The translations under genes were made by a program, and so were the position numbers. From a virus, in IMG/VR virus record IMGVR_UViG_3300031715_000010, positions 1 through 46,043 of that record: a DNA stretch of 46,043 bases; one strand, given 5' to 3'. Positions 4,016 to 46,043 of the stretch are shown here, one piece after another; the first letter of the stretch is position 1, and each line of letters starts with the position of its first letter. The notes beneath the pieces are model-generated. The model ran no database searches, was not told the origin of the DNA, and saw nothing but the letters and a program-made list of their open reading frames with translations.

Positions 4016-4091
4016 AATCCTCTCGCCCTAGCCTCGCAAGCATCAGTCACAATTCGTGAACGTGCCGGGGAATTTTTCCGGTTCACAGCCC

Positions 4092-4141
4092 TTGAATGAG
4101 CGGGGATTTCCCCCTATGTCCTAGCTCTGGGGACTATCCCC
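4092..4141 (+). promoter_or_regulatory. ardC promoter with two GGGGA-N-TCCCC operators
   Basis: A -35 TTGAAT (4092-4097), 17-bp spacer and -10 TATGTC (4115-4120) precede ardC. Palindrome GGGGA-TT-TCCCC (4102-4113) fills the spacer, starting 10 bp after the -35 start. A second palindrome, GGGGA-CTA-TCCCC (4129-4141), lies just past the expected start point. The same palindrome recurs at 6650-6662, pointing to a common repressor. Confidence 0.6.
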
Positions 4142-4160
4142 GCTTTTGGAGCTCGAGACA

Positions 4161-5045
4161 ATGCGTAACCTTCACAAGGAAATCACCGATCGTATCCTGG
4201 CGCGCCTCAAGGCTGGCGTCGTTCCTTGGCGTCAACCCTGGTCCGGCAAAGGCTTTGGCGTCATGCCTCGCAACGCCGCCACCAGCCGCGCCTATTCGGG
4301 CGCCAACGTTCTCTTGCTCTGGTCGCGCGCGCAAGAGAGCGGCTTCACTGATCCCCGCTGGCTAACCTTCAAGCAAGCCCTCGAGGCGGGCGGCAATGTG
4401 CGCAAGGGGGAAAAAGGCGAATGCGTCGTCTACGTCTCGCATGTCGAGCGCATCGACGAAGACGGACAAAAGCGTCGCATTCCGTTCCTGAAGGCCTATA
4501 CCGTTTTCAACGTGTCGCAATGCGACAATCTGCCGGCCAAGATCGTCGACCCGGCTGGCGCGGCGCGGCAATGGAACAACGACGCGCGCGACGGCCTGGC
4601 CGAGGCCTTCATTCACTCGACTGGCGCAAGCGTCCGGCATGGCGAGGCGCGCGCCTATTACACGCCAGTCCGCGACTATGTGAATCTGCCAGCCTTCGAA
4701 ACGTTCAAGAGCGCCTCGGCCTATTACGGCGTGGCGTTCCATGAGCTCGGCCATTGGACGGGCGCCGAGAAACGCTTGAACCGAACCTTCGGCAAGCGTT
4801 TCGGCGACAGCGCCTATTCGGCCGAGGAACTGGTCGCCGAGCTCGCCAGCGCGTTCCTCTGCGCCGAATTCGGCTTCGACAATGACGGCGCCGACGCCGC
4901 CTATATCGCCTCCTGGATCAAGTTTTTCACCGAGCATGAAAAGGCGCTCGTCGCCGCGGCAAGCGCGGCGTCCAAGGCCGTCGAATTCATGCGCGGCCTG
5001 GCGCTGGCCGAAGACGCCGGCGACGAGCTCGCAATCGCAGCGTGA
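4161..5045 (+). CDS. ardC: ArdC-type antirestriction protein (DUF1738 plus zincin)
   Basis: 294 residues from ATG 4161, which has GGAG about 10 bases upstream (a TTG at 4146 would add five residues). Residues 1-125 match the ssDNA-binding DUF1738 domain (LHKEITDRILARLKAGVVPW, then NVRKGEKGECVVY). The C-terminal zincin-like metallopeptidase domain has HELGHWTG at 194-201, with the HExxH zinc site, and a downstream EELVAELASAFL helix supplying the third ligand. ArdC proteins bind single-stranded DNA and protect incoming DNA from restriction. It is the first gene of a rightward unit; two operator palindromes in its promoter suggest silencing in the lysogen and a burst on entry. Confidence 0.88.
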   Translation: MRNLHKEITDRILARLKAGVVPWRQPWSGKGFGVMPRNAATSRAYSGANVLLLWSRAQESGFTDPRWLTFKQALEAGGNVRKGEKGECVVYVSHVERIDEDGQKRRIPFLKAYTVFNVSQCDNLPAKIVDPAGAARQWNNDARDGLAEAFIHSTGASVRHGEARAYYTPVRDYVNLPAFETFKSASAYYGVAFHELGHWTGAEKRLNRTFGKRFGDSAYSAEELVAELASAFLCAEFGFDNDGADAAYIASWIKFFTEHEKALVAAASAASKAVEFMRGLALAEDAGDELAIAA

Positions 5046-5095
5046 AAGCGCCAGCCCATGCCCGACGGACAACGTCGGGCATGAGCGGGCGCTTT
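5045..5095 (+). terminator. Long stem-loop after ardC (attenuator or terminator)
   Basis: Nested perfect arms: CATGCCCGAC (5057-5066) with GTCGGGCATG (5074-5083) around a 7-nt loop, and outer AAAGCGCC (5045-5052) with GGCGCTTT (5088-5095). The T-run after it is only four bases, so it may be a partial terminator or an RNA-stabilising structure between ardC and the next gene. Confidence 0.55.
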
Positions 5096-5118
5096 TGCCC
5101 GATTGAGGGAACTGACAA

Positions 5119-5703
5119 ATGGAACATGTTTCTCCCGACATTGCGGACTGTGAGCCGTTCACGCCGTCGCAATCGCAACATTGGGGCCCGGACAATGCTC
5201 ATGTCCGCGCCTGGAACAAGGAACCGGCAACGCCTTTCCGGTTCGAGGCGCTAGAAGGCAATTGTGAGCCGAAGGAATGGGGCAAGCCTTATCCGCAGCT
5301 CGGCGCGGCTGTCGAGAAATACCGCAAGCTGGCGCGCGGCCGAGCTCTGACGGCAGACGAAACACGCGCGCATGGCCAAGCGGTAGGCGTAGCGATGCTG
5401 CAGCGGCGCGAGCTCTGCGGCGACGCGCGCCTCGAGATTGATCTGCGCTCAACCTGCGTCAACAAAAGCGGGCGCACGCAAGCGGCGAATGAAGCCGCAT
5501 ATGAGCGTTGGCTGGCCAAGCTGGCGCAGATCCGCGCGGCGCGCGCGGCTGTCTATCAAGGCGCAAACCCGGAAACTGTCGACCTTATTGCGCCGGCGAA
5601 GCGCAAGCGTCGGGCGCCGAAAGTCGCCGCGGCCAAGCCGGCGCTGAAGCCGCGCTATACCCTGCGCAACGGCGCATTTGTCCTGGTCACGGAGGCGGCA
5701 TAG
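5119..5703 (+). CDS. Hypothetical protein downstream of ardC
   Basis: 194 residues, ATG preceded by GAGGGA. It has a charged middle (WGKPYPQLGAAVEKYRKLAR, later ETRAHGQAVGVAML) and a basic linker of lysines and alanines (KRKRRAPKVAAAKPALK) before the C-terminus. No family recognised; the basic tail suggests nucleic-acid binding. Co-transcribed with ardC through the hairpin. Confidence 0.65.
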   Translation: MEHVSPDIADCEPFTPSQSQHWGPDNAHVRAWNKEPATPFRFEALEGNCEPKEWGKPYPQLGAAVEKYRKLARGRALTADETRAHGQAVGVAMLQRRELCGDARLEIDLRSTCVNKSGRTQAANEAAYERWLAKLAQIRAARAAVYQGANPETVDLIAPAKRKRRAPKVAAAKPALKPRYTLRNGAFVLVTEAA

Positions 5704-5897
5704 TGGCCAAGCCCAAAATTATTTGGTCCGAACATTTCGGGGCCAAGCGGCGCGCCATCGATCGCGCCGTTCTCGCCGAGCTCGAGCGCCAGATTGCCGC
5801 GGAGGAGCTCGAGCCGGTCACCCGCGTTGATACGGAAATTGACCGCGCGGCGATCGCTCGCGCGTTCGGACGGCCCATCCTGGAGGCGAGAGAATGA
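5703..5897 (+). CDS. 64-residue hypothetical protein
   Basis: GTG at 5703 shares its first base with the preceding TAG. The protein begins MAKPKIIWSEHFGAKRRAID and is helical with clusters of Glu and Arg. It ends overlapping the next ATG by 4 bases. Unknown function. Confidence 0.6.
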   Translation: MAKPKIIWSEHFGAKRRAIDRAVLAELERQIAAEELEPVTRVDTEIDRAAIARAFGRPILEARE

Positions 5898-6067
5898 ACA
5901 TCAAAACCGAATACGACCCGCGCAACCCTAAGGGCATGCGCTGGACTGCGATTGACTCGGACACTTACGACGGGCCCGAATGTCCACTCGGGCTAGGCGA
6001 CACGGAAGACGAGGCGATTGCGGAGCTGCTCGAGCGCCTAAGGCCCGAAGACCCAAAGCCCAATTAG
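5894..6067 (+). CDS. 57-residue acidic hypothetical protein
   Basis: Reads MNIKTEYDPRNPKGMRWTAI through DTEDEAIAELLERLRPED. The pattern of a short beta part (WTAIDSDTYDG) followed by an acidic helix is typical of small phage proteins that bind host targets, but no family is named. ATGA overlap with the gene before it; last gene before a terminator. Confidence 0.6.
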   Translation: MNIKTEYDPRNPKGMRWTAIDSDTYDGPECPLGLGDTEDEAIAELLERLRPEDPKPN

Positions 6068-6091
6068 GCGTTCCAAAATTGGACAGCGCAC

Positions 6092-6115
6092 GGGCCGCGG
6101 CGAAAGCTGCGGCCC
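6092..6115. terminator. Bidirectional terminator with GAAA tetraloop
   Basis: GGGCCGCGGC-GAAA-GCTGCGGCCC forms a 10-bp stem (one G-U pair) closed by a GNRA tetraloop, with only a short T stretch after it. It separates the rightward gene ending at 6067 from the leftward gene ending at 6123. Confidence 0.7.
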
Positions 6116-6122
6116 TTGTCGT

Positions 6123-6581
6123 TCACGGCCCGTCGTCCCTCAACGCGCCGTACAGGCCATTTGCGCGCGACGGCGTGCACGAACAGTGATCAAGCAAGGC
6201 CTGCTGCGCCAGCCCCTGCTGGTAATTCTGCATCCCCTGGTAATTCTGCAGCCCCTGCGCCTGCGCCTGCGCCTGCTGCGCAAACGCTTGGTTTTGCATC
6301 GCGGCCATCTGCTGCAGCTGCGACCACTGCGCCATTTGCTGCTGCGCCATTTGCTGCATCGCCTGGCCGGCGTCGCGCTCGCGCCTGAGATCCAAATATA
6401 GATCGCGCCAGCGGTTCCCCCGCTCGCGCGCCTCCTCCAGCTCGGCGATTGTGTGCTCGAGGCGGGCGTTCAAGCTTTTGAGCTCGGCCTCGAGCTCGAG
6501 CTCCCGCTCGCCCTTCTCCCGCGGTTTGAGCCGCGCCGCGATCGCCGGCGCAAATGCGAGCAGGACGCTTGCCAGGCTCAT
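6123..6581 (-). CDS. Coiled-coil, glutamine-rich protein
   Basis: 152 residues. A hydrophobic N-terminus (MSLASVLLAFAPAIAARL) could be a membrane anchor. Residues about 22-70 form a coiled coil rich in Glu/Leu/Arg. Then comes a low-complexity Gln/Ala/Met tract, and a distinct end with LLDHCSCTPSRANGLYG. Membrane-tethered coiled coils of this size can be spanins or holin partners, but no signature decides it. Convergent with the 5894 gene across the terminator and divergent from 6675. Confidence 0.6.
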   Translation of the reverse strand: MSLASVLLAFAPAIAARLKPREKGERELELEAELKSLNARLEHTIAELEEARERGNRWRDLYLDLRRERDAGQAMQQMAQQQMAQWSQLQQMAAMQNQAFAQQAQAQAQGLQNYQGMQNYQQGLAQQALLDHCSCTPSRANGLYGALRDDGP

Positions 6582-6639
6582 GCCGCGTTCCTCTTCCGTT
6601 CCTCATCGCCCGCGTTGAGCCTAAAGGCCCGCATGGCGA

Positions 6640-6674
6640 TTGACAAGCCGGGGAAGATCCCCATATTGTTTCGC
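6640..6674 (+). promoter_or_regulatory. Promoter with GGGGA-AGA-TCCCC operator, probably leaderless
   Basis: -35 TTGACA (6640-6645), 16-bp spacer, -10 CATATT (6662-6667). The operator palindrome GGGGA-AGA-TCCCC (6650-6662) fills the spacer, starting 10 bp after the -35 start as at ardC. The expected transcription start is at or next to ATG 6675, so the mRNA would have no leader. Confidence 0.65.
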
Positions 6675-6681
6675 ATGAAAC
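6668..6681. promoter_or_regulatory. parS-like palindrome at the 6675 start codon
   Basis: GTTTC-GCAT-GAAAC differs from the parS core at 2755-2768 at two central bases. It overlaps the start codon at 6675. It may be a weak ParB site, an operator, or chance. Confidence 0.3.
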
Positions 6682-6890
6682 AGAAATTATCGCTGATCGC
6701 GGCGCTCGTCGCCGTCGCCGCCGGCGCTGCAATGACTGAGCTCGACGAGGTCAAAACGCGCTGCAAAATTGTCGCCGACCGGTTCAACGACGACTTGCCC
6801 GGGCGCGACTCTCTCGCCGGGCAATTTCGCCACGCCAAGGATTACGACCAGTGCCTGGTCATCCACGGCTTCACCCAGGACCCCGATTGA
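6675..6890 (+). CDS. Small secreted protein
   Basis: 71 residues with a signal peptide: MKQK, then a hydrophobic run ending near AAGAAM. The mature part is short, acidic and has two cysteines (TRCKIVAD and YDQCLVIHG) that could form a disulfide. First gene of a rightward operon reaching 8297. Export suggests an envelope role such as host-surface alteration or superinfection exclusion, but no homology supports a particular one. Confidence 0.65.
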   Translation: MKQKLSLIAALVAVAAGAAMTELDEVKTRCKIVADRFNDDLPGRDSLAGQFRHAKDYDQCLVIHGFTQDPD

Positions 6891-7099
6891 TGATCCGGAT
6901 TCTGATTTCCGACGCCGCCTATGCGGCTTTGTGTACAGGCGTACCCGAGGATCGGCGTTTGCCGGCCCAACGTTGCCCCGAGGGCGGTCATTTTTTGTGG
7001 TTGGACAAACGGACGGCAAACCGGCTTTCGGCCGCCAGGGGCAAATCCGAGGGCTACAGCGACGTGATCCTCAGGCTGGCCGAGATGGAACGCGCATGA
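6890..7099 (+). CDS. 69-residue hypothetical protein
   Basis: Starts MIRILISDAAYAAL; the ATG overlaps the preceding TGA by one base. It has a beta-alpha start, a CPEGGHFLWL segment and a helical C-terminus. Unknown family; kept for the tight coupling and ordinary composition. Confidence 0.6.
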   Translation: MIRILISDAAYAALCTGVPEDRRLPAQRCPEGGHFLWLDKRTANRLSAARGKSEGYSDVILRLAEMERA

Positions 7100-7233
7100 C
7101 GTTCAAGGTCAAAGGCCGGCAAGTTGGCAAGCGCTCACACGGGCTCGTCGAGATCCCTATGCCTGAACCGCGTCGGATTGTCGTTTCCAAGCACGCCAAG
7201 GCCAAACGACCAAAGAAGGCTAAGCCCAAATGA
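7096..7233 (+). CDS. 45-residue basic protein
   Basis: Begins MTFKVKGRQVGKRSHG and ends with a lysine-rich tail (KHAKAKRPKKAKPK). ATGA overlaps on both sides. The strong positive charge suggests DNA or RNA binding. Function unknown. Confidence 0.55.
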   Translation: MTFKVKGRQVGKRSHGLVEIPMPEPRRIVVSKHAKAKRPKKAKPK

Positions 7234-7487
7234 CCCCCGGGGAGCTCAGACAGGCCCGCCTCACGCTCGGCCTGACCGCGGTCGAGTTCGCCCGCGTCTT
7301 CGACGTCAACGAGCGCACCCTGCGCAGCTGGGAATATGGCGTCGTCAAGGGCAAGCCGAGCCCAATCCCGCGGCCGATCGCGGTCCTGGTGCGCCTGGCG
7401 CTCAAATATGCCACCGTGCGCCGCGAGCTGGGGATTGCGTCGAAGGCGATCGAAGATGCCGAAGAAAGGCTCAGGCAAGCGCGCTAA
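7230..7487 (+). CDS. Helix-turn-helix transcriptional regulator
   Basis: 85 residues. Residues 4-45 form an XRE-like HTH (RQARLTLGLTAVEFARVF, then NERTLRSWEYG), resembling the small regulators related to HigA/MqsA C-terminal domains. It lies in the operon whose promoter carries the GGGGA-N3-TCCCC operator, so it is the best candidate to bind that operator and that of ardC. This link is inference. Confidence 0.78.
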   Translation: MTPGELRQARLTLGLTAVEFARVFDVNERTLRSWEYGVVKGKPSPIPRPIAVLVRLALKYATVRRELGIASKAIEDAEERLRQAR

Positions 7488-7926
7488 CCTGCCGACGCGC
7501 GACGAATTGCCGACCGTCGGCGTCTCGCGCCTGCGCGCCCTTCACCTTATCACCCCAAGCATGTCATCGGCCCTCGTCGCCTTCGGCGAGGGCGAAAGCG
7601 CGCTCGTGCGTGAGATCCGCGTGAGCCACCTCAAGTTTCCCAATGGCGGCTCTTGGTCGTTTTTCCACTGCCCGAGCTGCGCCAAGCGCGTGCGAACCTT
7701 GCGGCTCTACGACGGGCGCGTCGTCTGCAAAGCCTGCGACGGGTTAGTCTACGCCGGCCAGGCGGGCGACAAATCCGGCGTGATCGAGCGCCTGCGTAAA
7801 CGCCTCAATGGCGAGGGCCGGCTCAGCCGGCCGGGCTTGATCGAACGGCGCGGCCGGCTCGAGATCGCGCTCAGGCGGGCGCTGATCGTCCAGCGGCGCA
7901 ACCGGCTGGGGAGCTTGCGCGAATGA
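7456..7926 (+). CDS. Zinc-ribbon conserved phage protein
   Basis: 156 residues from ATG 7456, overlapping the HTH gene by 32 bases. A zinc ribbon lies in the middle (FHCPSCAKRVRTLRL, then VVCKACDGLVYAGQ), with a basic helical C-terminus. The pattern is common in uncharacterised proteins of alphaproteobacterial prophages. The ribbon implies DNA binding; the role is unknown. Confidence 0.7.
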   Translation: MPKKGSGKRANLPTRDELPTVGVSRLRALHLITPSMSSALVAFGEGESALVREIRVSHLKFPNGGSWSFFHCPSCAKRVRTLRLYDGRVVCKACDGLVYAGQAGDKSGVIERLRKRLNGEGRLSRPGLIERRGRLEIALRRALIVQRRNRLGSLRE

Positions 7927-8297
7927 CGCTTAAGGTCCCGCCGAGCTGCGCCCACCTCGACCCGGCCGAGATCTACGACGAGCTCGTGCGCACCGGCGGC
8001 AACGTGAGCGAGACGGCCCGCACGCTTCGGGTTCCCGTCATCGATCTGCGCCGGTTGACCCGCATCGCGCCGAGCCTGATCGAGGCGGCCCTCGAGGCCG
8101 AGGAGCAGGCGCTCGACGAGGCCGAGGCCGTGGTGCGCCAGGCGCTCAAGAGCGCCGATTGGAGCCGCAAGCTGGCCGCCGCCGGCCATATCCTGCGCAC
8201 CAGCCCTGCAGCCAGGCGGCGCGGTTTTGGTTCGGGCGCCGCGCCCGAAGTCCAGGACGAGCCGCGCGGCGTCACACTCAAATGGATCGAGCCATGA
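7923..8297 (+). CDS. TerS-like HTH protein, paralogue of 44229-44681
   Basis: 124 residues. An N-terminal HTH-like part (EIYDELVRTGGNVSETARTL) is followed by a helical middle and the C-terminal stretch RRRGFGSGAAP to VTLKWIEP. The protein at 44229-44681 has the same order, with GNVTAAAKAMGV, RRRGFG and ITLKWLEP. Small terminase subunits combine an N-terminal HTH and a C-terminal partner-binding tail, so both are TerS candidates; the copy near TerL is the likelier terminase subunit and this one may be a decoy or regulator. ATGA overlap with the previous gene. Confidence 0.6.
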   Translation: MTLKVPPSCAHLDPAEIYDELVRTGGNVSETARTLRVPVIDLRRLTRIAPSLIEAALEAEEQALDEAEAVVRQALKSADWSRKLAAAGHILRTSPAARRRGFGSGAAPEVQDEPRGVTLKWIEP

Positions 8298-8300
8298 GCA

Positions 8301-8340
8301 AGCAGTTTCGAGCAGTTTGCGATTCTGCGCAATTTCGCAA
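8301..8340. repeat. AGCAGTTT direct repeat and nested palindrome
   Basis: AGCAGTTT occurs at 8301-8308... approximately and again at 8311-8318, the first within AGCAGTTTCG and the second within AGCAGTTTGCG. From 8317 a symmetrical array runs TTGCGA-TTC-TGCGCA-ATT-TCGCAA, an outer inverted repeat around a palindromic centre. It lies between two rightward units and may be a regulator site. Confidence 0.45.
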
Positions 8341-8386
8341 GTTGCGGGTCCTCTCGTAACCTGCGGGCGTTCATGCTATGCCCCAA

Positions 8387-8411
8387 TGTCAATCTCAACG
8401 GGAGATTGACA
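8387..8411 (+). promoter_or_regulatory. RNA hairpin overlapping the ribosome site of 8414
   Basis: Perfect 10-bp arms TGTCAATCTC (8387-8396) and GAGATTGACA (8402-8411) with a 5-nt loop. The GGGAG ribosome binding site (8400-8404) is partly inside the stem and the start codon is 3 bases beyond, so folding would limit translation. It could also be a protein operator. Confidence 0.55.
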
Positions 8412-8413
8412 CA

Positions 8414-8746
8414 ATGGCAAGTCGCCCACCTCCTCCGCGCCGCGCTTCGCCGCCGCCCCCGCCGCCCCGCCTGCCCCAATATGTCCCGCTGCCGCCGCCG
8501 ACCGGCGCGGCGCCCGAGGCCGAGCAAGAGCCGGAACAGCTGCCGACCGAGCCCAACTTCCCCTATCCGCCGGTCAAAACCATCGCCGACGAGCAGCGCG
8601 AGCGCAGCGAAGAGATCCAGCGCATGGGCGTCACCGCCTATATGGCGCAGTTCGACACGCGCGATCCCGAAGCGCCGCAGCAGACGGTGCCCGGCGTCTC
8701 CAACACCCGGGTCGAGGAATACGAGATCCGCAGCGGCCGGCGCTGA
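8414..8746 (+). CDS. Proline-rich hypothetical protein
   Basis: 110 residues from ATG 8414, with GGGAG upstream inside a hairpin. The N-terminal third is nearly all Pro/Arg/Ala. The second half is ordinary (VKTIADEQRERSEEIQRMG, then FDTRDPEAPQQTVPG). The next gene starts in the stop codon. No family recognised; linkage to a Pro/Gly-rich protein suggests a virion-associated pair, which is inference. Confidence 0.6.
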   Translation: MASRPPPPRRASPPPPPPRLPQYVPLPPPTGAAPEAEQEPEQLPTEPNFPYPPVKTIADEQRERSEEIQRMGVTAYMAQFDTRDPEAPQQTVPGVSNTRVEEYEIRSGRR

Positions 8747-9627
8747 TGCCGATCACCGATCTCTCGACCGGCGATGATTGGCAGGCCTGGCTACAGAACA
8801 TGGCCGGCGGCGGCCAAGGCGTCGGCGGCCTTCAGGGCGATGTCGGCTATCCTTCGCCCGGATTCCCCGGCCCAGGGCCCGAAACGAGAGGCTACGTCAA
8901 CCCGCCGACGATCGAAGGCCAGGCCAACCAGCTCGTCCCCGGCGCCCGGGCGCCGATGTACGTCAACCCGCAATCGCTGCAGGACATCCTCGCCGGCCGC
9001 AGCGCCATCTCGCCGTCGCCTGGTCAGCCTGGCGCGGGCGCGATCGCCGGCGCTGGCGGAGGCGGCGCCGGCGGCGGCGTCCCGATTCCTGGCGGGCTGG
9101 CCGCCGGCGGGGTCGGAGATCCGGCGGCGCGTTTGCGCGGCCTCGGCGCCGCCGGCCTTCTCGGCATGGGCCAATACGGCGTGGATTTCGCCCAGCGGCA
9201 CGGCCTGATGCAGGCGCTGTTTCCAGGCTTTACCGGCGCAGCCAACCCTCCAGGACCGGCGGCGCCCTCGACCGCCGCGCCAGGCGCAATGCCGGCGCGG
9301 CCTTACACAGCCACGCCCATGCCGCCCGGGCCGATGGATCCGAGCATCATCGCCAGGCAGGCCATCGGCAGACAGGCCGCCGGCGCGACCGCGCCCGGCC
9401 GTCCCGCGCCGGTGGCTACAACCAACCTTCCCGGTTTGCCTTATGGCCCCGCCGCCGCGCCGCGGGCCGCCGCGCCCATCCCGCGACCGACGCCGGCGCC
9501 GTCCCCGAATCTGGGTTACTACGCCCCGACCAGCGGCAACGCTCGCGGCGCGACCTACACGCCTTATCTCAACCCCAACGACCCGCGCATCTACCGCGGG
9601 CCGCTCTCGATGTTCGGAGCCGGATAA
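8746..9627 (+). CDS. Proline/glycine-rich protein, possible virion component
   Basis: 293 residues, start overlapping the preceding stop. Long Gly/Ala/Pro low-complexity tracts surround a more ordinary centre (YVNPQSLQDILAGR, then LLGMGQYGVDFAQRHGLMQ). Composition is close to the late proteins at 23154-25143, although this gene lies far from the structural cluster and on the other strand. It may be a minor or internal virion protein. No signal or membrane segment. Confidence 0.6.
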   Translation: MPITDLSTGDDWQAWLQNMAGGGQGVGGLQGDVGYPSPGFPGPGPETRGYVNPPTIEGQANQLVPGARAPMYVNPQSLQDILAGRSAISPSPGQPGAGAIAGAGGGGAGGGVPIPGGLAAGGVGDPAARLRGLGAAGLLGMGQYGVDFAQRHGLMQALFPGFTGAANPPGPAAPSTAAPGAMPARPYTATPMPPGPMDPSIIARQAIGRQAAGATAPGRPAPVATTNLPGLPYGPAAAPRAAAPIPRPTPAPSPNLGYYAPTSGNARGATYTPYLNPNDPRIYRGPLSMFGAG

Positions 9628-17665: not shown

Positions 17666-18084
17666 AAGCGCGTATGGTCGAGCCCGCTTCGATTTCGCCT
17701 GACACTCCGCTCAGGCTCGAAATCGTGGCGAGGCTTGCTTTTCCCGATGGCTCCATGACCGCGAGCGGCCTTCGGCGAGAGATCGCCAAGGGGCGACTGA
17801 CGGTCGAAACGATCGCCGGGAAGCAATACACCACGTTGTCGAACGTGGAAGAAATGAGGGGACTATGTCGAACGCCGCAAAACCCGCCCGCCTCTGGCTG
17901 CGGGACGTCAGGGGAAGCAAGGTCTGGTACATCCTCGACAACGGACGCCAAATCGCAACTGGCTGCAGCGCTGATGACCGCGCGAGCGCTGAAGAAAAGC
18001 TCGCCGAACACATCGGCGCGAAAACCAAGCCGAGTTATGACAGCGGACGTGACCCTGCTGCCATCCCGATCGCCGAGATCTTGA
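17662..18084 (+). CDS. xis: Excisionase-like protein
   Basis: 140 residues from ATG 17662. Residues 14-70 resemble the MerR/Xis winged helix: LRLEIVARLAFPDGSMTASG, LRREIAKGRLTVETIAGKQY and TTLSNVEEMRGLC. This domain with its FPDGSMTASGLR signature usually precedes a tyrosine integrase in rhizobial prophages. The last 73 codons overlap the integrase gene in another frame and are Ser/Ala-rich, so the tail may be of little importance. Confidence 0.75.
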   Translation: MKARMVEPASISPDTPLRLEIVARLAFPDGSMTASGLRREIAKGRLTVETIAGKQYTTLSNVEEMRGLCRTPQNPPASGCGTSGEARSGTSSTTDAKSQLAAALMTARALKKSSPNTSARKPSRVMTADVTLLPSRSPRS

Positions 18085-18965
18085 ATATCTATCAGCAGGA
18101 CCGCGGCGCGAAGATTGCCCGGCCACAGGAGCTCGGGCAGCGTGTCACCGCGCTGCTGGGCTTCTTTGGGACAAAACCTGTCACGGCGCTCAACAAGCGC
18201 CTATGCCGGAATTACGCCGAACATCGCGGCCGCCCGCAGGCCGCCAGGCGCGAGCTCGAGGACTTGCATGCGGCCCTCGGCGTCGCTTTCGAGGAGAAGA
18301 TTCTCACCGTCGACTTCCGCCGCGACATCGAGCTGCCGCCCAAGGCGGCTCCCCGCGAGCGATGGCTCACCCGCTCTGAGGCCGCGCGGCTGATATGGGC
18401 GGCGTGGCGCTATCGCGAGGTCCAGAAGGGGCATGCCACGGGCCGCAAGAGCCGCCAGCACGTGGCTCGGTTCATCCTGGTGGCGCTCTATACCGGAACC
18501 CGCTCGGCGGCGGTCTGCGGGGCCGCTATGGGCCCTGCGATCGGCCGCGGCCATGTCGACCTGGACCAGGGCGTTTTCTATCGCCGCGCTCCTGGCACGA
18601 CGGACACGAACAAGCGCCAGCCGCCAGTTCGATTGCCGGGTCGCTTGCTTGCCCATATGCGCCGATGGAAGCGACGCGGCATCTCGCTCAAGGCCGTCGT
18701 CGAGTTCAACGGCGAGCCGGTCCGGAGCGTGAAGAAGGCCTTCGCCCGCTGCGTCTTCGACGCCGGCCTCGAGGGCAAAGTCTCGCCGCACACGCTGCGC
18801 CACACCGCGATCTCGTGGGCGCTGCAGAACGGCACCAAGATCTGGGATGCGAGTGATTTCTTCGGCGTCTCGCCGGAGGTGCTCAACCGCGTCTACGGAC
18901 ATCACTGTCCGGACCGGCACAAGGAGGTCGCTGAGGCCATCACCCGCAAAGGAAACAGACGGTGA
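17865..18965 (+). CDS. int: Tyrosine-type site-specific integrase
   Basis: 366 residues. The N-terminal half has arm- and core-binding features (LRDVRGSKVWYILDNGRQIA). The catalytic part shows Arg213 in LYTGTRS, Lys250 in TNKRQ, His309/Arg312 in SPHTLRHT and His346/347 in VYGHH. The usual nucleophilic Tyr about nine residues after the last His is not visible; only Tyr344, just before GHH, is near, which is a trait of this rhizobial integrase group or a divergence. It is followed at once by attP, the normal order for tRNA-integrating phages. Confidence 0.88.
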   Translation: MSNAAKPARLWLRDVRGSKVWYILDNGRQIATGCSADDRASAEEKLAEHIGAKTKPSYDSGRDPAAIPIAEILNIYQQDRGAKIARPQELGQRVTALLGFFGTKPVTALNKRLCRNYAEHRGRPQAARRELEDLHAALGVAFEEKILTVDFRRDIELPPKAAPRERWLTRSEAARLIWAAWRYREVQKGHATGRKSRQHVARFILVALYTGTRSAAVCGAAMGPAIGRGHVDLDQGVFYRRAPGTTDTNKRQPPVRLPGRLLAHMRRWKRRGISLKAVVEFNGEPVRSVKKAFARCVFDAGLEGKVSPHTLRHTAISWALQNGTKIWDASDFFGVSPEVLNRVYGHHCPDRHKEVAEAITRKGNRR

Positions 18966-19087: not shown

Positions 19088-19137
19088 CCTCGTTCGGGAC
19101 GAGGGGGTCGGAGGTTCGAATCCTCTCACTCCGACCA
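19088..19137 (+). other. attP: attP core: 3' part of tRNA-Pro(CGG)
   Basis: These 50 bases fold as the 3' part of a tRNA. The anticodon arm is CCTCG-TTCGGGA-CGAGG, with anticodon CGG at 19095-19097 (proline). Then come variable loop GGGTC, T arm GGAGG-TTCGAAT-CCTCT, acceptor strand CACTCCG, A73 and CCA. The D arm and 5' acceptor strand are missing, so it is not a functional tRNA gene. Integration here would restore the host tRNA-Pro gene. Confidence 0.88.
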
Positions 19138-37092: not shown

Positions 37093-37327
37093 TTCTCTGC
37101 TGCCTGATCGCCATCTTGTAATTGTTCATCAAGATTGTGAGCTCGGTCGGGATGCTCTCGAGCGCCTTGATCTGGGCGCGGAACTCGGCCAACTCGTCAG
37201 CATGGCAGCCCAGAAGCTCCTCAAACAAGCGCTTCCTGAGCTCGAGGATCGAATGGGCGAACGCCTTATTGTCCAAGAGGTCCCGGGCCGCGTCGGCGAG
37301 CTCCTTCTTGTTCGAGAGGTCGTTCAT
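37085..37327 (-). CDS. 80-residue helical protein between portal and scaffold
   Basis: Reads MNDLSNKKELADAARDLLDN and ends MNNYKMAIRQQRNG. A helix-rich protein with one Cys, overlapping the portal and scaffold genes by 4 and 8 bases. Small helical proteins at this place may assist procapsid assembly; function unknown. Confidence 0.65.
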   Translation of the reverse strand: MNDLSNKKELADAARDLLDNKAFAHSILELRKRLFEELLGCHADELAEFRAQIKALESIPTELTILMNNYKMAIRQQRNG

Positions 37328-39507
37328 TGGCCCGACCTCTGTGCGTCGGCCTTGGCCGCGGCCGCGGCCGCCTGCTGCTGGGCCTTGAACATGTTGGCGG
37401 CGACGTTGCCGAGCGCGGCGTCATGCTCACGCCTGATCTGCTCCTGCTCGAGCTTAAGCTTGGCCGCGTCGTAGATCGTCTCCTGCGCCAGCTTCTCGCG
37501 GCGGAAGGCGTCGTCCTGGTCCTGCTTCTCCTGCTTGAACTGCTGGTCGGCGAGCGCCTGGGCCGTGTCGGACTTGACCTTCTCCATCTGCGCCTTGGCC
37601 GCCGCCGCCATCGGGTCGGGCTCCTTCGGCGTCGCCGCGATCGCAGCCAGGGTCTGCGGGTCGGGCGTCCTGAAGTAGCGCCCGACATTCTTGATGTTGG
37701 CGATGTCGAGCATGTCGCTGATGGTGTTCAAGTATTCTTGAATTCCACACACCGGGTTGGTGACGCCGAACTGCTGCATGATCATCTGCTGATCGGCCTT
37801 GATCTGCTGCAGGGTCATCATCCGGATCGTGTCCGAGCCCTTGCCCAGGGTCGGGTTGACCTCGACGCCCATGCTGGCGTCGAAGGCGCCCGTGTCGATG
37901 TCGGTCCAGGCGCCGTTGATGCGCAGCGTCCGGCGCTGGTTGGGGCTCTCGGCGATCTCGTTGTAGAGGCCGAGGAAGAGATCCTTGAAGCCCGTTTCGG
38001 CCAGCACCCGGGCGACCAGCTCGGTGCGCTCCTGCTGGCCGTTGATGATCGCCTGGACGCCGATCTCGGTCGACGATTGCAATTGTTTGGGGTCGAGGCC
38101 CTTGGCGGCGTCGCTTAAGCCCGTGCGCCGCTGGAAGATGTCGTTGAGCATCTCGAGCACCGGCATCGCCTGCTGGCCGGCGAACGGGGTGGTGGAGAAC
38201 GACACGGCTTCATTGGGATTGCCGCGGGTGCGGATGACCGCGCCGAGATCGTCGTTGAGCGCGTCGTCGATATTGGTGGTGAGCTCGTTGACCACCGTCT
38301 TGGGGTTGATGCTCTCGGCCAGGCTGTCGAGCACGCCGCGCATCATGTTGGTCTTGATGCGCTGGATGTCGGTGACGTAGTCGGCCACGCTGTCGCCGAC
38401 GATGGTGTGCGAGATCGGGTCGACGCCGAACACGGCGAACTTGACCCGGTTGGCGTAGTCGTCATGGACGATCTCGTTGTCCTCGCCCATGGTGCAGATG
38501 TAGCGGAGCTCGGCGTGGCCATCGCCGTCGGCGTCGACCTTGATGTACCACTCGCCATAGAGCACGCCGTCGCCGACCCGGGTCGAATTGTAGCGGCCCG
38601 GATTGCGGAGTTGGCTCTCCATGGTGAAGTTCTGGATGTCTTGGCTCTGCAGGAAATTGGCGCAGAGCTCGCGCGGATAGCCCATGGCGACCAGTTCATC
38701 GATCGCCACCACCCGCTGGTGGCCGACGATGCGCGAGGTCGCAAACGAGCGGGCGTAGCGATCGAGCCGCATCTCCTCCGGCGGCACGCCCGCCACCTTG
38801 ATCAGCGGCTTATCGACCTGGTAGCGGAATGTCACCTCATCGTAGGTGCCCATCTGCGGGTCGAGCGGGCCCTGGTGCACGATCTGGGCGGTGACGTCCT
38901 GGCTCAGCAGCATCTGGATCTGCTGCGGGTTCACGTTGATGAAGGTTTTGCGCTTGAACTCCTTGTGGTCGTCGGTCCACCACTTCACAAAGCCGGTCTT
39001 GACCGTCATGGCGTCCTTGAACGCGCCATAGAGGATCAGGAAGCCCGGATTGTCCTGCCAAAACACATAGTTGATGTAGTTTGTCTGCTGTTCGGCCGCG
39101 TCGACGTCGGCCGGCGTGCGCGGGTTGAGGAAGACCGGCTTTTGGCTCGAGCCGAACAGCCGGATCAGGCTCGGCAGCATCAGCATGACGGCGTCGCGCA
39201 CGTCGGTCGAGACATAGGTCGACTTGTTGGCGCTCTCCTGGTCATAGCCGAGGATCTGCTCGTAAGTGGCGTCGGGATCCTGGATGATCAGCGTGTCGCT
39301 ATAGGGCGAGCCGTCCGGGTTGAGCGAGGGCAACAGGCCGTAATAGTACTTTTGCGACTTGTCGCGCACCGGGGCGAGCACCGAGCCCTCGTAGTCGCGC
39401 GAGTCGCGGATCAAAGCCTGGATGAATTGCTCATAGGTCGCCGGGTCGGCCGGGTCGTAGGCGTCTGGCGCGCCGCCCTCTTTGAAGCTGGCGAAGAGCT
39501 GCTCCAC
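37324..39507 (-). CDS. Portal protein (P22-like)
   Basis: 727 residues, the first gene of the late operon. Portal-family features: VLAPVRDKSQKYYYGLLPS, STDVRDAVMLMLPSLIRLFG, a long crown region with ADYVTDIQRIKTNMMRGVLD and MPVLEMLNDIFQRRTGLSD, and a coiled-coil, Gln/Ala-rich barrel tail (QFKQEKQDQDDAFRREKLAQ). The length and tail match P22 gp1. The portal forms the 12-fold vertex for packaging and ejection. Confidence 0.88.
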   Translation of the reverse strand: MEQLFASFKEGGAPDAYDPADPATYEQFIQALIRDSRDYEGSVLAPVRDKSQKYYYGLLPSLNPDGSPYSDTLIIQDPDATYEQILGYDQESANKSTYVSTDVRDAVMLMLPSLIRLFGSSQKPVFLNPRTPADVDAAEQQTNYINYVFWQDNPGFLILYGAFKDAMTVKTGFVKWWTDDHKEFKRKTFINVNPQQIQMLLSQDVTAQIVHQGPLDPQMGTYDEVTFRYQVDKPLIKVAGVPPEEMRLDRYARSFATSRIVGHQRVVAIDELVAMGYPRELCANFLQSQDIQNFTMESQLRNPGRYNSTRVGDGVLYGEWYIKVDADGDGHAELRYICTMGEDNEIVHDDYANRVKFAVFGVDPISHTIVGDSVADYVTDIQRIKTNMMRGVLDSLAESINPKTVVNELTTNIDDALNDDLGAVIRTRGNPNEAVSFSTTPFAGQQAMPVLEMLNDIFQRRTGLSDAAKGLDPKQLQSSTEIGVQAIINGQQERTELVARVLAETGFKDLFLGLYNEIAESPNQRRTLRINGAWTDIDTGAFDASMGVEVNPTLGKGSDTIRMMTLQQIKADQQMIMQQFGVTNPVCGIQEYLNTISDMLDIANIKNVGRYFRTPDPQTLAAIAATPKEPDPMAAAAKAQMEKVKSDTAQALADQQFKQEKQDQDDAFRREKLAQETIYDAAKLKLEQEQIRREHDAALGNVAANMFKAQQQAAAAAAKADAQRSGQ

Positions 39508-40396: not shown

Positions 40397-40432
40397 GGGC
40401 GCGCTCTCAAAAGAGCGCGCCCTCCCGGAGGG
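40397..40432 (+). promoter_or_regulatory. Hairpins before the endolysin
   Basis: GGGCGCGCTCT-CAAA-AGAGCGCGCCC (40397-40422) is a perfect 11-bp stem with a tetraloop. An alternative, CCCTCC-C-GGAGGG (40420-40432), would trap the ribosome binding site GGAGG of the endolysin. The two share CCC and exclude each other, so translation could be switched. Confidence 0.55.
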
Positions 40433-40437
40433 TGAAG

Positions 40438-41016
40438 ATGATCGACCGCAAGACGTTCTTCGATTCGATCCGCGCGTCGCTATTCGGCGGCACGCTCAAG
40501 CAAAGCCAGGTCGACGGGGTCGATTACCTGTTGAATGTCTGGGAGCGCCATTTCGAGATCCCCAATCCGCGCGACGGGACCAAGTGGCTCTCCTACTGCA
40601 TGGCGACGGTCTACCACGAGACGGCGCAGACGATGCAGCCGATCGAGGAATACGGCCAGGGCAAGGGCAAGAAATACGGCCAGCCGGCGGGGCCGCATGG
40701 CCACTGCTACTATGGCCGCGGCCATGTCCAGCTCACCTGGGAGGAGAATTACCTCAAGGCGGAGAAGAACCTGAAGGATCGCTACGGCGTCGAGGCGAAG
40801 CTGCACAAAGAGCCGCACCGCATGCTCGAGCACGAGATCTCGGCTTTGGTCCTCTATGACGGGATGATCCACGGCTGGTTCACCGGGGTCGGCTTGCCGA
40901 AATATTTCAACGCCACGGTCGAGGACCCGGTCAATGCGCGCCGGATCGTCAACGCGCTCGACAAGGCCGAGCTGATCGCCGGCTATTACGGGAAGTTCAA
41001 GAAAGCGCTGGCATGA
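40438..41016 (+). CDS. Endolysin, GH19 chitinase-like
   Basis: 192 residues from ATG 40438 (GGAGG six bases upstream; the frame opens at GTG 40432). TVYHETAQTMQPIEEYGQG carries the GH19 catalytic Glu61 and YYGRGHVQLTWEENY at 91-105 the conserved substrate-binding loop. The C-terminus is helical. Such enzymes cleave peptidoglycan glycan strands. No signal peptide, so it needs a holin. Confidence 0.85.
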   Translation: MIDRKTFFDSIRASLFGGTLKQSQVDGVDYLLNVWERHFEIPNPRDGTKWLSYCMATVYHETAQTMQPIEEYGQGKGKKYGQPAGPHGHCYYGRGHVQLTWEENYLKAEKNLKDRYGVEAKLHKEPHRMLEHEISALVLYDGMIHGWFTGVGLPKYFNATVEDPVNARRIVNALDKAELIAGYYGKFKKALA

Positions 41017-42374
41017 GCGAGGCGCGGCTCGACGACGACCCTTCGACAAGCTCAGGGGCCGCGCCCCCTTCGACAGGCTCAGGGGACGGGACGATCGAGG
41101 TCCCCTACCTGCCGCGCAAGCACTTCCGCCCTTTGCACGCCTCGACCAAGCGCTGGATGTTCGTCTGCGCCCATCGCCGGGCGGGCAAGACGGTGGCCTT
41201 GGCCAACCAGCTGATCCGCGCCGCTTCGCTCAACGGGCGCAAGTGGCCGCCGCCGCGCTACGGCTATGTCGGGCCGTCCTTCGAGCAGGCCAAGGACCTG
41301 GTCTGGGCTTACTTGAAGCAATATACCGAGAAGATTCCCGGCGTCCGCCATCTCGAGGGCGAGCTCGCCTGCATCCTGCCCAACAAGGCGACGATCAAGC
41401 TCTATGGCGGCGCGGCGGCCTACGAGCGCATGCGCGGCATGTATTTCGACGGCATCGTGCTCGACGAATATCCGCTGCTCAACCCGGCGGTCCTGTCGAC
41501 CGTGGTCAGGCCGTGCCTGGCCGACTATCGCGGCTTCGGCCTGGTCAGCGGCACCTCGAACGGCGACGACCATTTCAACCATTTGCGGCTCAAGGTCGAG
41601 GACGATCCACGCTGGGACATGTTCATCATCCCGCTCTCCGCCACTGGCGAGGAGGCGCTCTCCCACGCCGAGGCGATCGAGCTCACCCAGGACATGAGTC
41701 CGGAGGAATACGCCCGCGAGATGGAGTGCAGCTTCGATGCGCCGGTCGAGGGCTCTTATTACGGCGAGATCCTCAACAAGCTCGCCTTGCAGGGCCGGAT
41801 CACCTCGGTGCCGGTCGATCTTTCCCAGCCGGTCATCACCGCGTGGGACCTGGGCATCCACGATTATTGCTGCATCTGGTTCTACCAGATCGCAGGTAAG
41901 GAGATCCATTTCATCGATTACATCCAGGACAACGGCAAGGGCCTCGACCATTACGCCCACGAGCTGCGCTTGCGCGCGAAGAAGGGCGGCTACGTGTTCA
42001 AGGCGCATTGCCTGCCCCACGACGTCGAGGCGCGCGAGCTGTCGACCGGGCAGAGCCGGCGGGCCTTCCTGGAGAACGAGCTCGACGAGCCGATCATCAC
42101 CGCGCCGTTCGCCAACCCAGGCGACGGCATCACCGCGGCGCGCGGGCTGCTCGGCCTCTCCTGGTTCGACCAGGTCAATTGCCGCAAGGGCCTGGCGATG
42201 TTGCGCGGCTATCACCGCAACAAGATGGGTCAGCCGGTGCATGGGCCCGGGCCGCATAGCCACGGGGCCGACGCCTATCGCACCTTCGCCACCGCTTTCC
42301 ACATGGTCGGCGGCTTAGCGGCGAGCCAGGGGCGGGGGCAGCGGCTGAGGCGCAAGATCCGCGGGCTGGTTTAA
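41013..42374 (+). CDS. terL: Terminase large subunit
   Basis: 453 residues, ATG inside the endolysin stop. Walker A AHRRAGKT at 53-60 and Walker B FDGIVLDEY at 145-153 mark the ATPase. The nuclease domain starts with ITAWDLGIHD (Asp279) and ends with HSHGADAYRTF (Asp near 420). Residues about 9-25 are encoded by two copies of a CCCTTCGACAAGCTCAGGGG-like repeat and look like an inserted linker. The last 60 bases overlap the convergent zinc protein gene. Confidence 0.9.
   Translation: MSEARLDDDPSTSSGAAPPSTGSGDGTIEVPYLPRKHFRPLHASTKRWMFVCAHRRAGKTVALANQLIRAASLNGRKWPPPRYGYVGPSFEQAKDLVWAYLKQYTEKIPGVRHLEGELACILPNKATIKLYGGAAAYERMRGMYFDGIVLDEYPLLNPAVLSTVVRPCLADYRGFGLVSGTSNGDDHFNHLRLKVEDDPRWDMFIIPLSATGEEALSHAEAIELTQDMSPEEYAREMECSFDAPVEGSYYGEILNKLALQGRITSVPVDLSQPVITAWDLGIHDYCCIWFYQIAGKEIHFIDYIQDNGKGLDHYAHELRLRAKKGGYVFKAHCLPHDVEARELSTGQSRRAFLENELDEPIITAPFANPGDGITAARGLLGLSWFDQVNCRKGLAMLRGYHRNKMGQPVHGPGPHSHGADAYRTFATAFHMVGGLAASQGRGQRLRRKIRGLV
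41039..41085. repeat. Two copies of the CCCTTCGACAAGCTCAGGGG element in terL
   Basis: Copy 1 (41039-41058) is CCCTTCGACAAGCTCAGGGG; copy 2 (41066-41085) is CCCTTCGACAGGCTCAGGGG, one mismatch, 27 bp apart. This word is known as a dispersed, often intergenic repeat in genomes of Sphingomonadales and other GC-rich alphaproteobacteria. Here it lies in frame in the terL start. Confidence 0.75.
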
Positions 42375-43390: not shown

Positions 43391-43939
43391 TTACGCCACT
43401 GCGATGGCGTTGCTGGTGGCGGAGGCCTCGCCGGCGGCGTTGATCGCGGTCACCCGGCAAGAGACGTTGGTCCCGCTGTCGGCCGCCTGCAGCATGTAGC
43501 TGCTCAGCGTCGCGCCGGGGATGTTGCCTCCGCCGCGCAGCCATTGATACACGTAATCGGTCGGCGAATAGCTCCAGTTCCCTTGGGTGCAGGCGAGCAC
43601 GTTGCCGACCGCGCCGGTCCCGCTGACATTGGGCGCGGTGATGAGAACCGGCGGCTGGATCAGCCCGAGCGCGCCGCTGATGGCGTCGGCCATGGCGGCC
43701 CCGCCGAGGTTGCCGGCCTTGCCTCGGTTGACCAGGTGAAGCGCCTCGTTGGTGAAGGCGGTCTGGGTCGGGCCCGGCTTCAGCGCCGCTGGCGGCCTGG
43801 CGATGGTCAGATCGTGGGTGGTTGTGTCGACGTCGAGCGCCGCGGCGATTGCGTTCAATTCAGTGACCAGGGTCGGATAGTTGAGGTTCTTCATGCCGAT
43901 CAGGGTCAGCTGGCTGGTGAAGTCGGCGATCTGGTACAT
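43391..43939 (-). CDS. Minor virion protein with Ig-like domain
   Basis: 182 residues. Residues 1-85 are helical (YPTLVTELNAIAAALDVDTT). The C-terminal domain, PNVSGTGAVGNVLACTQGNW through YVYQWLRGGGNIPGATLSSY and CRVTAINAAGEASATS, is an Ig-like/FnIII-like fold. Ig-like decoration domains are common on phage heads and tails. An unusual location for a structural protein, in the TerS operon. Confidence 0.65.
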   Translation of the reverse strand: MYQIADFTSQLTLIGMKNLNYPTLVTELNAIAAALDVDTTTHDLTIARPPAALKPGPTQTAFTNEALHLVNRGKAGNLGGAAMADAISGALGLIQPPVLITAPNVSGTGAVGNVLACTQGNWSYSPTDYVYQWLRGGGNIPGATLSSYMLQAADSGTNVSCRVTAINAAGEASATSNAIAVA

Positions 43940-44929: not shown

Positions 44930-45219
44930 AGCCAGCTCTCCACCAGGTGCGGCGGGTCCCTCTCGGAGCGCGCCATTTTGACCAGGCCCGCGCCTTCGAA
45001 GGCCTCACGCAACGCCTCGAGCTTGCCGGTCAGCACGTCGCTGGTGGCGAGCGGGCCGACTTTGTGGCCGATCTCGAACCGCCGGGCGATGAAGCCGTTG
45101 GGGTGGTCTTTCGGCCGGTCATAGATGGTCCAGATGGCGAGCGCGCCGCGCTTCATCGCGGCATGCGAGGCGGCCTGAATGAAGGCTTGGCCGAGGCCGG
45201 TCATTGGCTCACCCGTCAT
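44926..45219 (-). CDS. Conserved hypothetical protein
   Basis: 97 residues from ATG 45219 (ATG 45204 is an alternative). LGQAFIQAASHAAMKRGALA, IWTIYDRPKDHPNGFIARRF and LEALREAFEGAGLVKMARSE. An alpha/beta protein found in phage packaging regions. Role unknown. Confidence 0.65.
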   Translation of the reverse strand: MTGEPMTGLGQAFIQAASHAAMKRGALAIWTIYDRPKDHPNGFIARRFEIGHKVGPLATSDVLTGKLEALREAFEGAGLVKMARSERDPPHLVESWL

Positions 45220-45376
45220 CGTCGGAAAGGACCAGGAACGCCCCGCGCAAAACGAAATAAGCGCCGGGAAGGAAGAGGGCGAGCCAGCCGAGCCAGCTGC
45301 CGGTCGCCCTCCACATGGCGAGGGCGAGGAAGAGGACGAACAGGCCTTGCAGAAGCTCGCCGATTCCTCGCCCCAT
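45209..45376 (-). CDS. Small two-helix membrane protein
   Basis: 55 residues from ATG 45376 with AGGGAGGG upstream. MGRGIGELLQGLFVLFLALA forms one helix, then GSWLGWLALFLPGAYFVLRG a second, and an acidic tail (SDDDG). The topology suits a holin or exclusion protein. It follows the PEP-CTERM gene by 11 bp, probably co-transcribed, and overlaps the next gene by 11 bases. Confidence 0.65.
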   Translation of the reverse strand: MGRGIGELLQGLFVLFLALAMWRATGSWLGWLALFLPGAYFVLRGAFLVLSDDDG

Positions 45377-45387
45377 GGCGTCCCTCC

Positions 45388-45945
45388 CTATAAGGCGAAG
45401 CGGTCCAGGCGCCGCTGGCGGCCGATCAGCCCGACCAGGCCGAAGCCGACCAGAACCATCGCCCAGGTCGACGGCTCCGGCACCGTCGCGGTCGCGGTGC
45501 CGTCAATGGCGATATGAATCGGCGAGGCTCCGCTCAGGCCGGCGATCTCGGCGAAATAATTGCCGGCGGCGACCCGGTCGGGAAGGACGGTCGCCTCCTG
45601 GCCGCCGACGACATTGACGATGGCCGAGCTTTCGATCAGCGCCCCGGCCGGGATGAAGGGCGGCGTCGCTCCGGTGGTCGACCACAGGTTGAGGCTGAGC
45701 GATCCGTCGACCACCCGCTGCAAGCCGGTGGCGCTGTCGCTCATCGACAGCGTCACCGTCTCGGCGACCGGAAGGTTGAACTCGAAAAACTGAGCGAAGG
45801 CCGCGCCGAGGCCGGGGGTCTGCTCGGCCGGCAGGGGCAGGCTTTCGTTGAGGATCGAGCCGATATTTTCGACGGTGGTCACCACCGCATGCGCAGGCCA
45901 GGCGCAGGCGGCGAGATCCGCTCCAAGCAATAGTCTTTTCAACAT
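45388..45945 (-). CDS. PEP-CTERM (PEPxxWA type) surface protein
   Basis: 185 residues. An N-terminal signal peptide (MLKRLLLGADLAACAWPAHA; Asp10 here, Val10 in the left copy) is followed by a beta-rich body with no Cys. The C-terminus has VPEPSTWAM at 155-163, a hydrophobic stretch (VLVGFGLVGLIG) and basic RQRR. This tripartite tail is the PEP-CTERM signal processed by exosortase in Gram-negative bacteria, usually for export to the outer surface. No exosortase gene lies in the window, so the host would supply it. First gene of the leftward operon, behind a terminator. A lysogenic-conversion function is inferred. Confidence 0.85.
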   Translation of the reverse strand: MLKRLLLGADLAACAWPAHAVVTTVENIGSILNESLPLPAEQTPGLGAAFAQFFEFNLPVAETVTLSMSDSATGLQRVVDGSLSLNLWSTTGATPPFIPAGALIESSAIVNVVGGQEATVLPDRVAAGNYFAEIAGLSGASPIHIAIDGTATATVPEPSTWAMVLVGFGLVGLIGRQRRLDRFAL

Positions 45946-46043
45946 GACGTCACCCTTTCTTCTTTGAAAACCCGCCAGGGAAATCCTGCCGGGATCCCGC
46001 TTAAAGACGACGCCACGATCGCCAATCTTCCAAAAACCCTATC
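45895..46043. repeat. Terminal direct repeat, right copy
   Basis: Identical to 1-149 except T at 45917 (A at 23). Contains the start of the PEP-CTERM gene, its ribosome site and the upstream terminator (45967-45993). See the left copy for interpretation. Confidence 0.95.

Follow-up and report, generated by a model that had tools for sequence, protein, structure and literature searches.

Architecture and genomic setting of the PEP-CTERM gene

The window, i.e. the whole 46,043-bp IMG/VR record analysed here, encodes on its minus strand a PEP-CTERM protein of 185 aa (45388-45945). Its ORF starts with a predicted signal peptide (MLKRLLLG..PAHA; residues 1-20, 45886-45945), which by inspection has a basic start, a hydrophobic core and a type I site between AHA and V; the AxA ending is conserved in relatives. 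An ectodomain (residues 25-153, 45487-45873) leads to the sorting motif PEPSTWAM (residues 156-163, 45457-45480, preceded by a valine), after which hydropathy and a helix at residues 160-184 of the AF2 model indicate a membrane helix that ends in the basic tail RQRR (residues 164-185, 45391-45456). The sorting signal scored above the Pfam and NCBIfam cut-offs, with 34.3 bits for PF07589 (E 2e-8; cut-off 20.7), 42.2 bits for the PEPxxWA-CTERM model NF035944 (E 6e-11; cut-off 35) and 21.2 bits for TIGR02595 (cut-off 16). The preliminary description had claimed a complete PEP-CTERM arrangement of signal peptide, PEPSTWAM, hydrophobic stretch and RQRR, and these scores bear it out. No PHROG matched the protein, and neither the whole protein nor the tag alone gave a match among 50,697 phage records.

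The AF2 model (mean pLDDT 70, pTM 0.57) shows a beta sandwich followed by the C-terminal helix. VIA-align placed it close to pre-peptidase C-terminal, collagen-binding and GOLD domains with Z values of about 9-11 (best 10.7). Because of these values we predict a jelly-roll beta sandwich, as Foldseek alone gave no PDB match under 1e-3 with the model. Sharing a jelly-roll fold says nothing on function.

The first 149 bp of the record (1-149) equal its end (45895-46043) with a single mismatch (23 A / 45917 T). Since both ends repeat in this way, the genome is circular or terminally redundant with a length of about 45.9 kb, and the IMG/VR record is probably a complete genome. Residue 10 of the signal peptide is D at the right contig end and V in the left-end copy; because the terminal copies differ at this one base, the D may stem from the assembly or from strain variation. 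The overlap also places the PEP-CTERM gene inside an operon. Across the joined ends, three further minus-strand genes precede it. The nearest one (151-363) ends about 100 bp before the PEP-CTERM start and encodes a 70-aa protein that weakly resembles the C-terminal portion of GcrA (PF07750, E 2e-4, 22.0 bits, under the cut-off of 26.9). By sequence comparison, the gene at 360-617 belongs to family F111, which also adjoins the PEP-CTERM gene in locus L170, and the gene at 742-1413 resembles family F112 of the same locus, where the order F112, F111, PEP-CTERM gene and two-helix protein gene (see below) recurs. The earlier view of the PEP-CTERM gene as the first gene of its operon was therefore an artefact of the contig end. 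A search for a sigma-70-like promoter found none.

The genome carries terminase, portal, scaffold, major head, tail-fibre and endolysin genes. The large terminase (41013-42374, plus strand) matched phrog_2 (E 4e-26), and the portal protein (37324-39507, minus strand) has its nearest named counterparts in Ochrobactrum phage vB_OspP_OH (40% identity) and Sinorhizobium phage phiM5 (34%). This soil phage is temperate, since a tyrosine integrase (17865-18965, plus strand; phrog_1, E 3e-31) is present together with a putative attP core (19089-19137, plus strand), which matches the last 49 nt of an alphaproteobacterial tRNA-Pro(CGG) at every position. The PEP-CTERM gene thus resides in an integrating phage, as would a lysogenic conversion gene. 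The hosts are probably alphaproteobacteria because of the phage relatives, the PEPxxWA type of the tag and the sub-threshold GcrA-like neighbour. Among the sampled genomes, the full 49-nt tRNA-Pro sequence was matched exactly in a single one (G678); in its bacterial family we found no exosortase over the cut-off and no relative of the PEP-CTERM family, and G678 was rejected as host evidence. The last 34 nt of attP occurred exactly in two Hyphomicrobiales MAGs, one of which (palsa_929) carries an exosortase, its exact match being limited to this 3' part. The host of this phage is presumed to carry an exosortase. Elsewhere in the window, an ArdC-type anti-restriction protein is encoded at 4161-5045 (PF08401, PF18818; phrog_7245). 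The product of 43391-43939 resembles phage structural proteins in its C-terminal region (phrog_12736, phrog_26223), and its family (F1) recurs near PEP-CTERM genes in several phages.

A viral protein family with a constrained sorting motif

In IMG/VR, 2.9 million viral contigs were scanned twice, which yielded 51 loci with members of the PEP-CTERM family at 53-79% identity. The best bacterial relative showed 36% identity among samples of 297 and 385 genomes and the matches listed from a pattern scan of 84,980 species; no full-length bacterial member exceeded this value in the sampled 297 and 385 genomes. When the ectodomain was used without its tail, the sole bacterial match among all fetched loci was a protein of Rhizobiales bacterium 65-9 (L091; E 8.5e-15), whose gene immediately precedes an exosortase gene within a cluster of the exopolysaccharide type. 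These searches suggest that the ectodomain family is found almost only in viruses. The Rhizobiales protein passes the model of the FxDxF family of PEP-CTERM proteins, NF038126, with 59.1 bits (cut-off 50). The window protein is weakly similar to that family over its full length and reaches 41.9 bits, and its ectodomain without the tail gave no match to the model; we thus rejected its assignment to the FxDxF family. In one viral member (L207, 9935-10648) the C-terminus extends past the basic tail, perhaps due to a frameshift.

The viral members occur in different genomic surroundings. The terminases beside them belong to phrog_2, phrog_38 or phrog_9, and other contexts include a different head module (phrog_9953), DNA polymerase genes and helicase genes. 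On the family tree at least 14 context changes are needed (minimum 7; shuffled mean 25.6), and for this reason we conclude that the gene moves between phage types. An integrase (phrog_1) was present in 15 of 27 records. In the other 12, some of them with DNA polymerase or helicase modules, none was found, so that lysogenic conversion may not be the sole use of the gene, which in this respect differs from prophage lysogenic-conversion genes. The integrase frames of five records (G002, G006, G007, G008 and G012) contain in-frame stops and are perhaps decayed or frameshifted. One 52-kb contig (IMGVR_UViG_3300021475_000019; L182 and L183) harbours two PEP-CTERM genes and two integrases and represents either tandem prophages or a chimera.

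Within the family, the sorting motif is strongly constrained. P156, E157, T160, W161 and M163 are invariant in 40 sequences, while degenerate codons among them vary, giving a pN of 0 against a pS of 0.65 at these five positions. The pN/pS ratio was 0.13 for the whole motif, 0.40 for the ectodomain, 0.69 for the signal peptide, 0.71 for the helix and about 0.85 for the tail, these rates being simple proportions over non-independent pairs to which no significance is attached. As motif strings had served as scan seeds, the calculation was repeated with 19 members lacking EPSTWAM: the same five positions were invariant, and helix and tail gave 0.72 and 0.94. Certain stretches of the ectodomain are conserved as strongly as the motif; of helix and tail, only the character is conserved. 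A motif that stays fixed while helix and tail drift supports its recognition by a host enzyme.

The same pattern bears on two other explanations. PEP-CTERM proteins are common in alphaproteobacteria, and the gene might be a chance pickup from a host, or the contig might be contaminated, with no function for the phage. We rejected this explanation, to which we give hardly any credence: it is contradicted by the spread of the family over several phage types and about 50 viral loci, by the position inside a phage operon, by the strong purifying selection and by the mere 36% identity of the best bacterial relative among the matches listed. The conservation of the protein as a whole in these roughly 50 loci puts it far beyond chance. 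Alternatively, the protein could serve as a decoy that occupies the host's exosortase, so that host PEP-CTERM proteins would stay in the inner membrane and capsule or matrix would be weakened. The motif is indeed the most constrained section of the tail, the same tag is found on different ectodomains (see below), and competition with host substrates could also conserve the motif. However, a free C-terminal tag would suffice for a decoy and make an ectodomain needless, whereas purifying selection also acts on the ectodomain (pN/pS 0.40), many positions of which are invariant. We therefore regard a decoy function as unlikely.

A recurrent two-helix partner and exchangeable ectodomains

Twelve nucleotides downstream of the PEP-CTERM gene starts a gene for a 55-aa membrane protein with two predicted helices (45209-45376, minus strand). 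The preliminary description had pointed to this neighbour, and the association proved to be recurrent. A profile of the 55-aa protein detected 29 loci on about 17 contigs among the loci fetched around PEP-CTERM genes. The copies were always on the same strand as, and beside, a PEP-CTERM gene, either -12 to +189 nt downstream or 98-182 nt upstream, and accompanied three unrelated ectodomain families (clusters 0, 1 and 2). Scanning all viral contigs with two-helix seeds reached only contigs that were already known and revealed no copy away from a PEP-CTERM gene. Vice versa, the majority of phage PEP-CTERM genes have no recognisable two-helix copy. The protein might act as a helper in sorting or as a co-acting membrane block.

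The latter role leads to a further explanation, in which the PEP-CTERM protein would remain anchored in the periplasm and, together with the two-helix protein, stop DNA entry of superinfecting phages at the inner membrane with no exosortase step. Both the topology, which suits a periplasmic anchor, and the adjacency of the two-helix protein in about 17 contigs are in line with such a block. A simple anchor, however, would not need PE..TW.M, and the motif is fixed while helix and tail drift, which makes this explanation, too, rather doubtful. Unimolecular spanins have a general layout similar to that of the PEP-CTERM protein, and a spanin-like lysis accessory would consist of a beta-rich protein, exported by Sec and with a helix at its C-terminus, and a small holin-like partner. 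The partner does have two helices, and the window protein and one relative (L002) contain a lipobox-like LAAC near the N-terminus. Yet these two are the only ones among 41 aligned copies with an N-terminal cysteine, the rest ending in a type I AxA site, so that the conserved lipobox cysteine of a unimolecular spanin is absent. Moreover, the endolysin gene lies elsewhere (40432-41016), apart from the PEP-CTERM gene, and spanins do not require a PE..TW motif. We rejected a role in lysis as very improbable.

The tag is not restricted to one ectodomain. The same viral-contig scans gave 118 PEP-CTERM ORFs in 22 ectodomain clusters, with hallmark genes checked in part of the contigs; for several genes tried on those contigs there was no PHROG match. 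Close relatives of the window phage, with portals 64-77% and terminases up to 82% identical, carry unrelated ectodomains of cluster 1. Cluster-1 PEP-CTERM genes are located between portal and terminase in L040, L065, L069 and L231, and adjoin the portal in L066. Judging from these genomes, the tag stays among close relatives and the ectodomain is exchanged.

Proposed sorting by a host exosortase

In its known role, exosortase sorting is a chromosomal system tied to biofilm and exopolysaccharide. No match to the exosortase model PF09721 occurred in the 34 phage records searched, and 20 of 22 bacterial genomes with similar PEP-CTERM genes had one. Purifying selection on the motif, the lack of an exosortase in these phage records and the common occurrence of the enzyme in alphaproteobacteria whose PEP-CTERM proteins bear this type of motif support the earlier proposal that the phage gene encodes a substrate for a host exosortase.

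We thus favour, with some confidence, a phage-encoded surface-protein module that is sorted by the host's exosortase and alters the envelope, most likely to the benefit of blocking other phages. The PEP-CTERM protein would be exported by Sec, and its C-terminal helix would hold it in the inner membrane. The exosortase of the alphaproteobacterial host would then recognise PE..TW.M and cleave, upon which the protein would reach the outer surface or the exopolysaccharide/matrix. There, the jelly-roll ectodomain could modify the envelope of an infected cell or of a lysogen; the phage would most likely gain from this by keeping other phages from adsorbing or entering. The two-helix protein may be a dedicated inner-membrane helper of the sorting step or a co-actor. 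Superinfection exclusion by the PEP-CTERM protein is plausible on the basis of the sequence data, and a changed biofilm or matrix is a possible benefit. More tentatively, and with somewhat less than even confidence, this may extend to a general strategy of soil alphaproteobacterial phages against competitors, in which ectodomains that can be swapped, each carrying a PEP-CTERM tag, are displayed at the surface through the host exosortase, often with the two-helix partner.

The proposed path of Sec export, anchoring, exosortase cleavage and display is modelled after the PEP-CTERM/EpsH system (Haft et al., PMC1569441) and on work on cyanoexosortase B (PMC12188702). With the former, the window protein shares the signal peptide, the C-terminal PE..(S/T)W motif, the membrane helix and the basic cluster, as well as the alphaproteobacterial PEPxxWA type. 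It differs in being encoded by phages without an exosortase, in its near-exclusively viral ectodomain and in the two-helix partner. The word 'phage' is absent from Haft et al. (2006), and in the portions of the literature that we covered on phages, prophages, viral contigs and auxiliary metabolic genes no account of PEP-CTERM proteins encoded by phages came up. Like surface-altering or superinfection-exclusion genes of prophages, the gene is temperate-phage cargo predicted to act at the envelope; the proposed route through the host exosortase sets it apart. A substrate family that is nearly confined to viruses, is under selection, swaps its ectodomains and has a recurrent membrane partner would show that phages exploit exosortase sorting. 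Such use of a host sorting enzyme to alter the cell surface is directly testable, and the two-helix protein would provide a small candidate partner for a poorly understood export step.

PEP-CTERM genes also occur in proviruses. Bradyrhizobium sp. WSM3983 has an exosortase in its genome, and one of its proviruses carries a pair of PEP-CTERM ORFs in the neighbourhood of tail and endolysin genes. An isolate-genome provirus record with terminase and portal (L057) contains four PEP-CTERM ORFs with unrelated ectodomains at 4070-8986.
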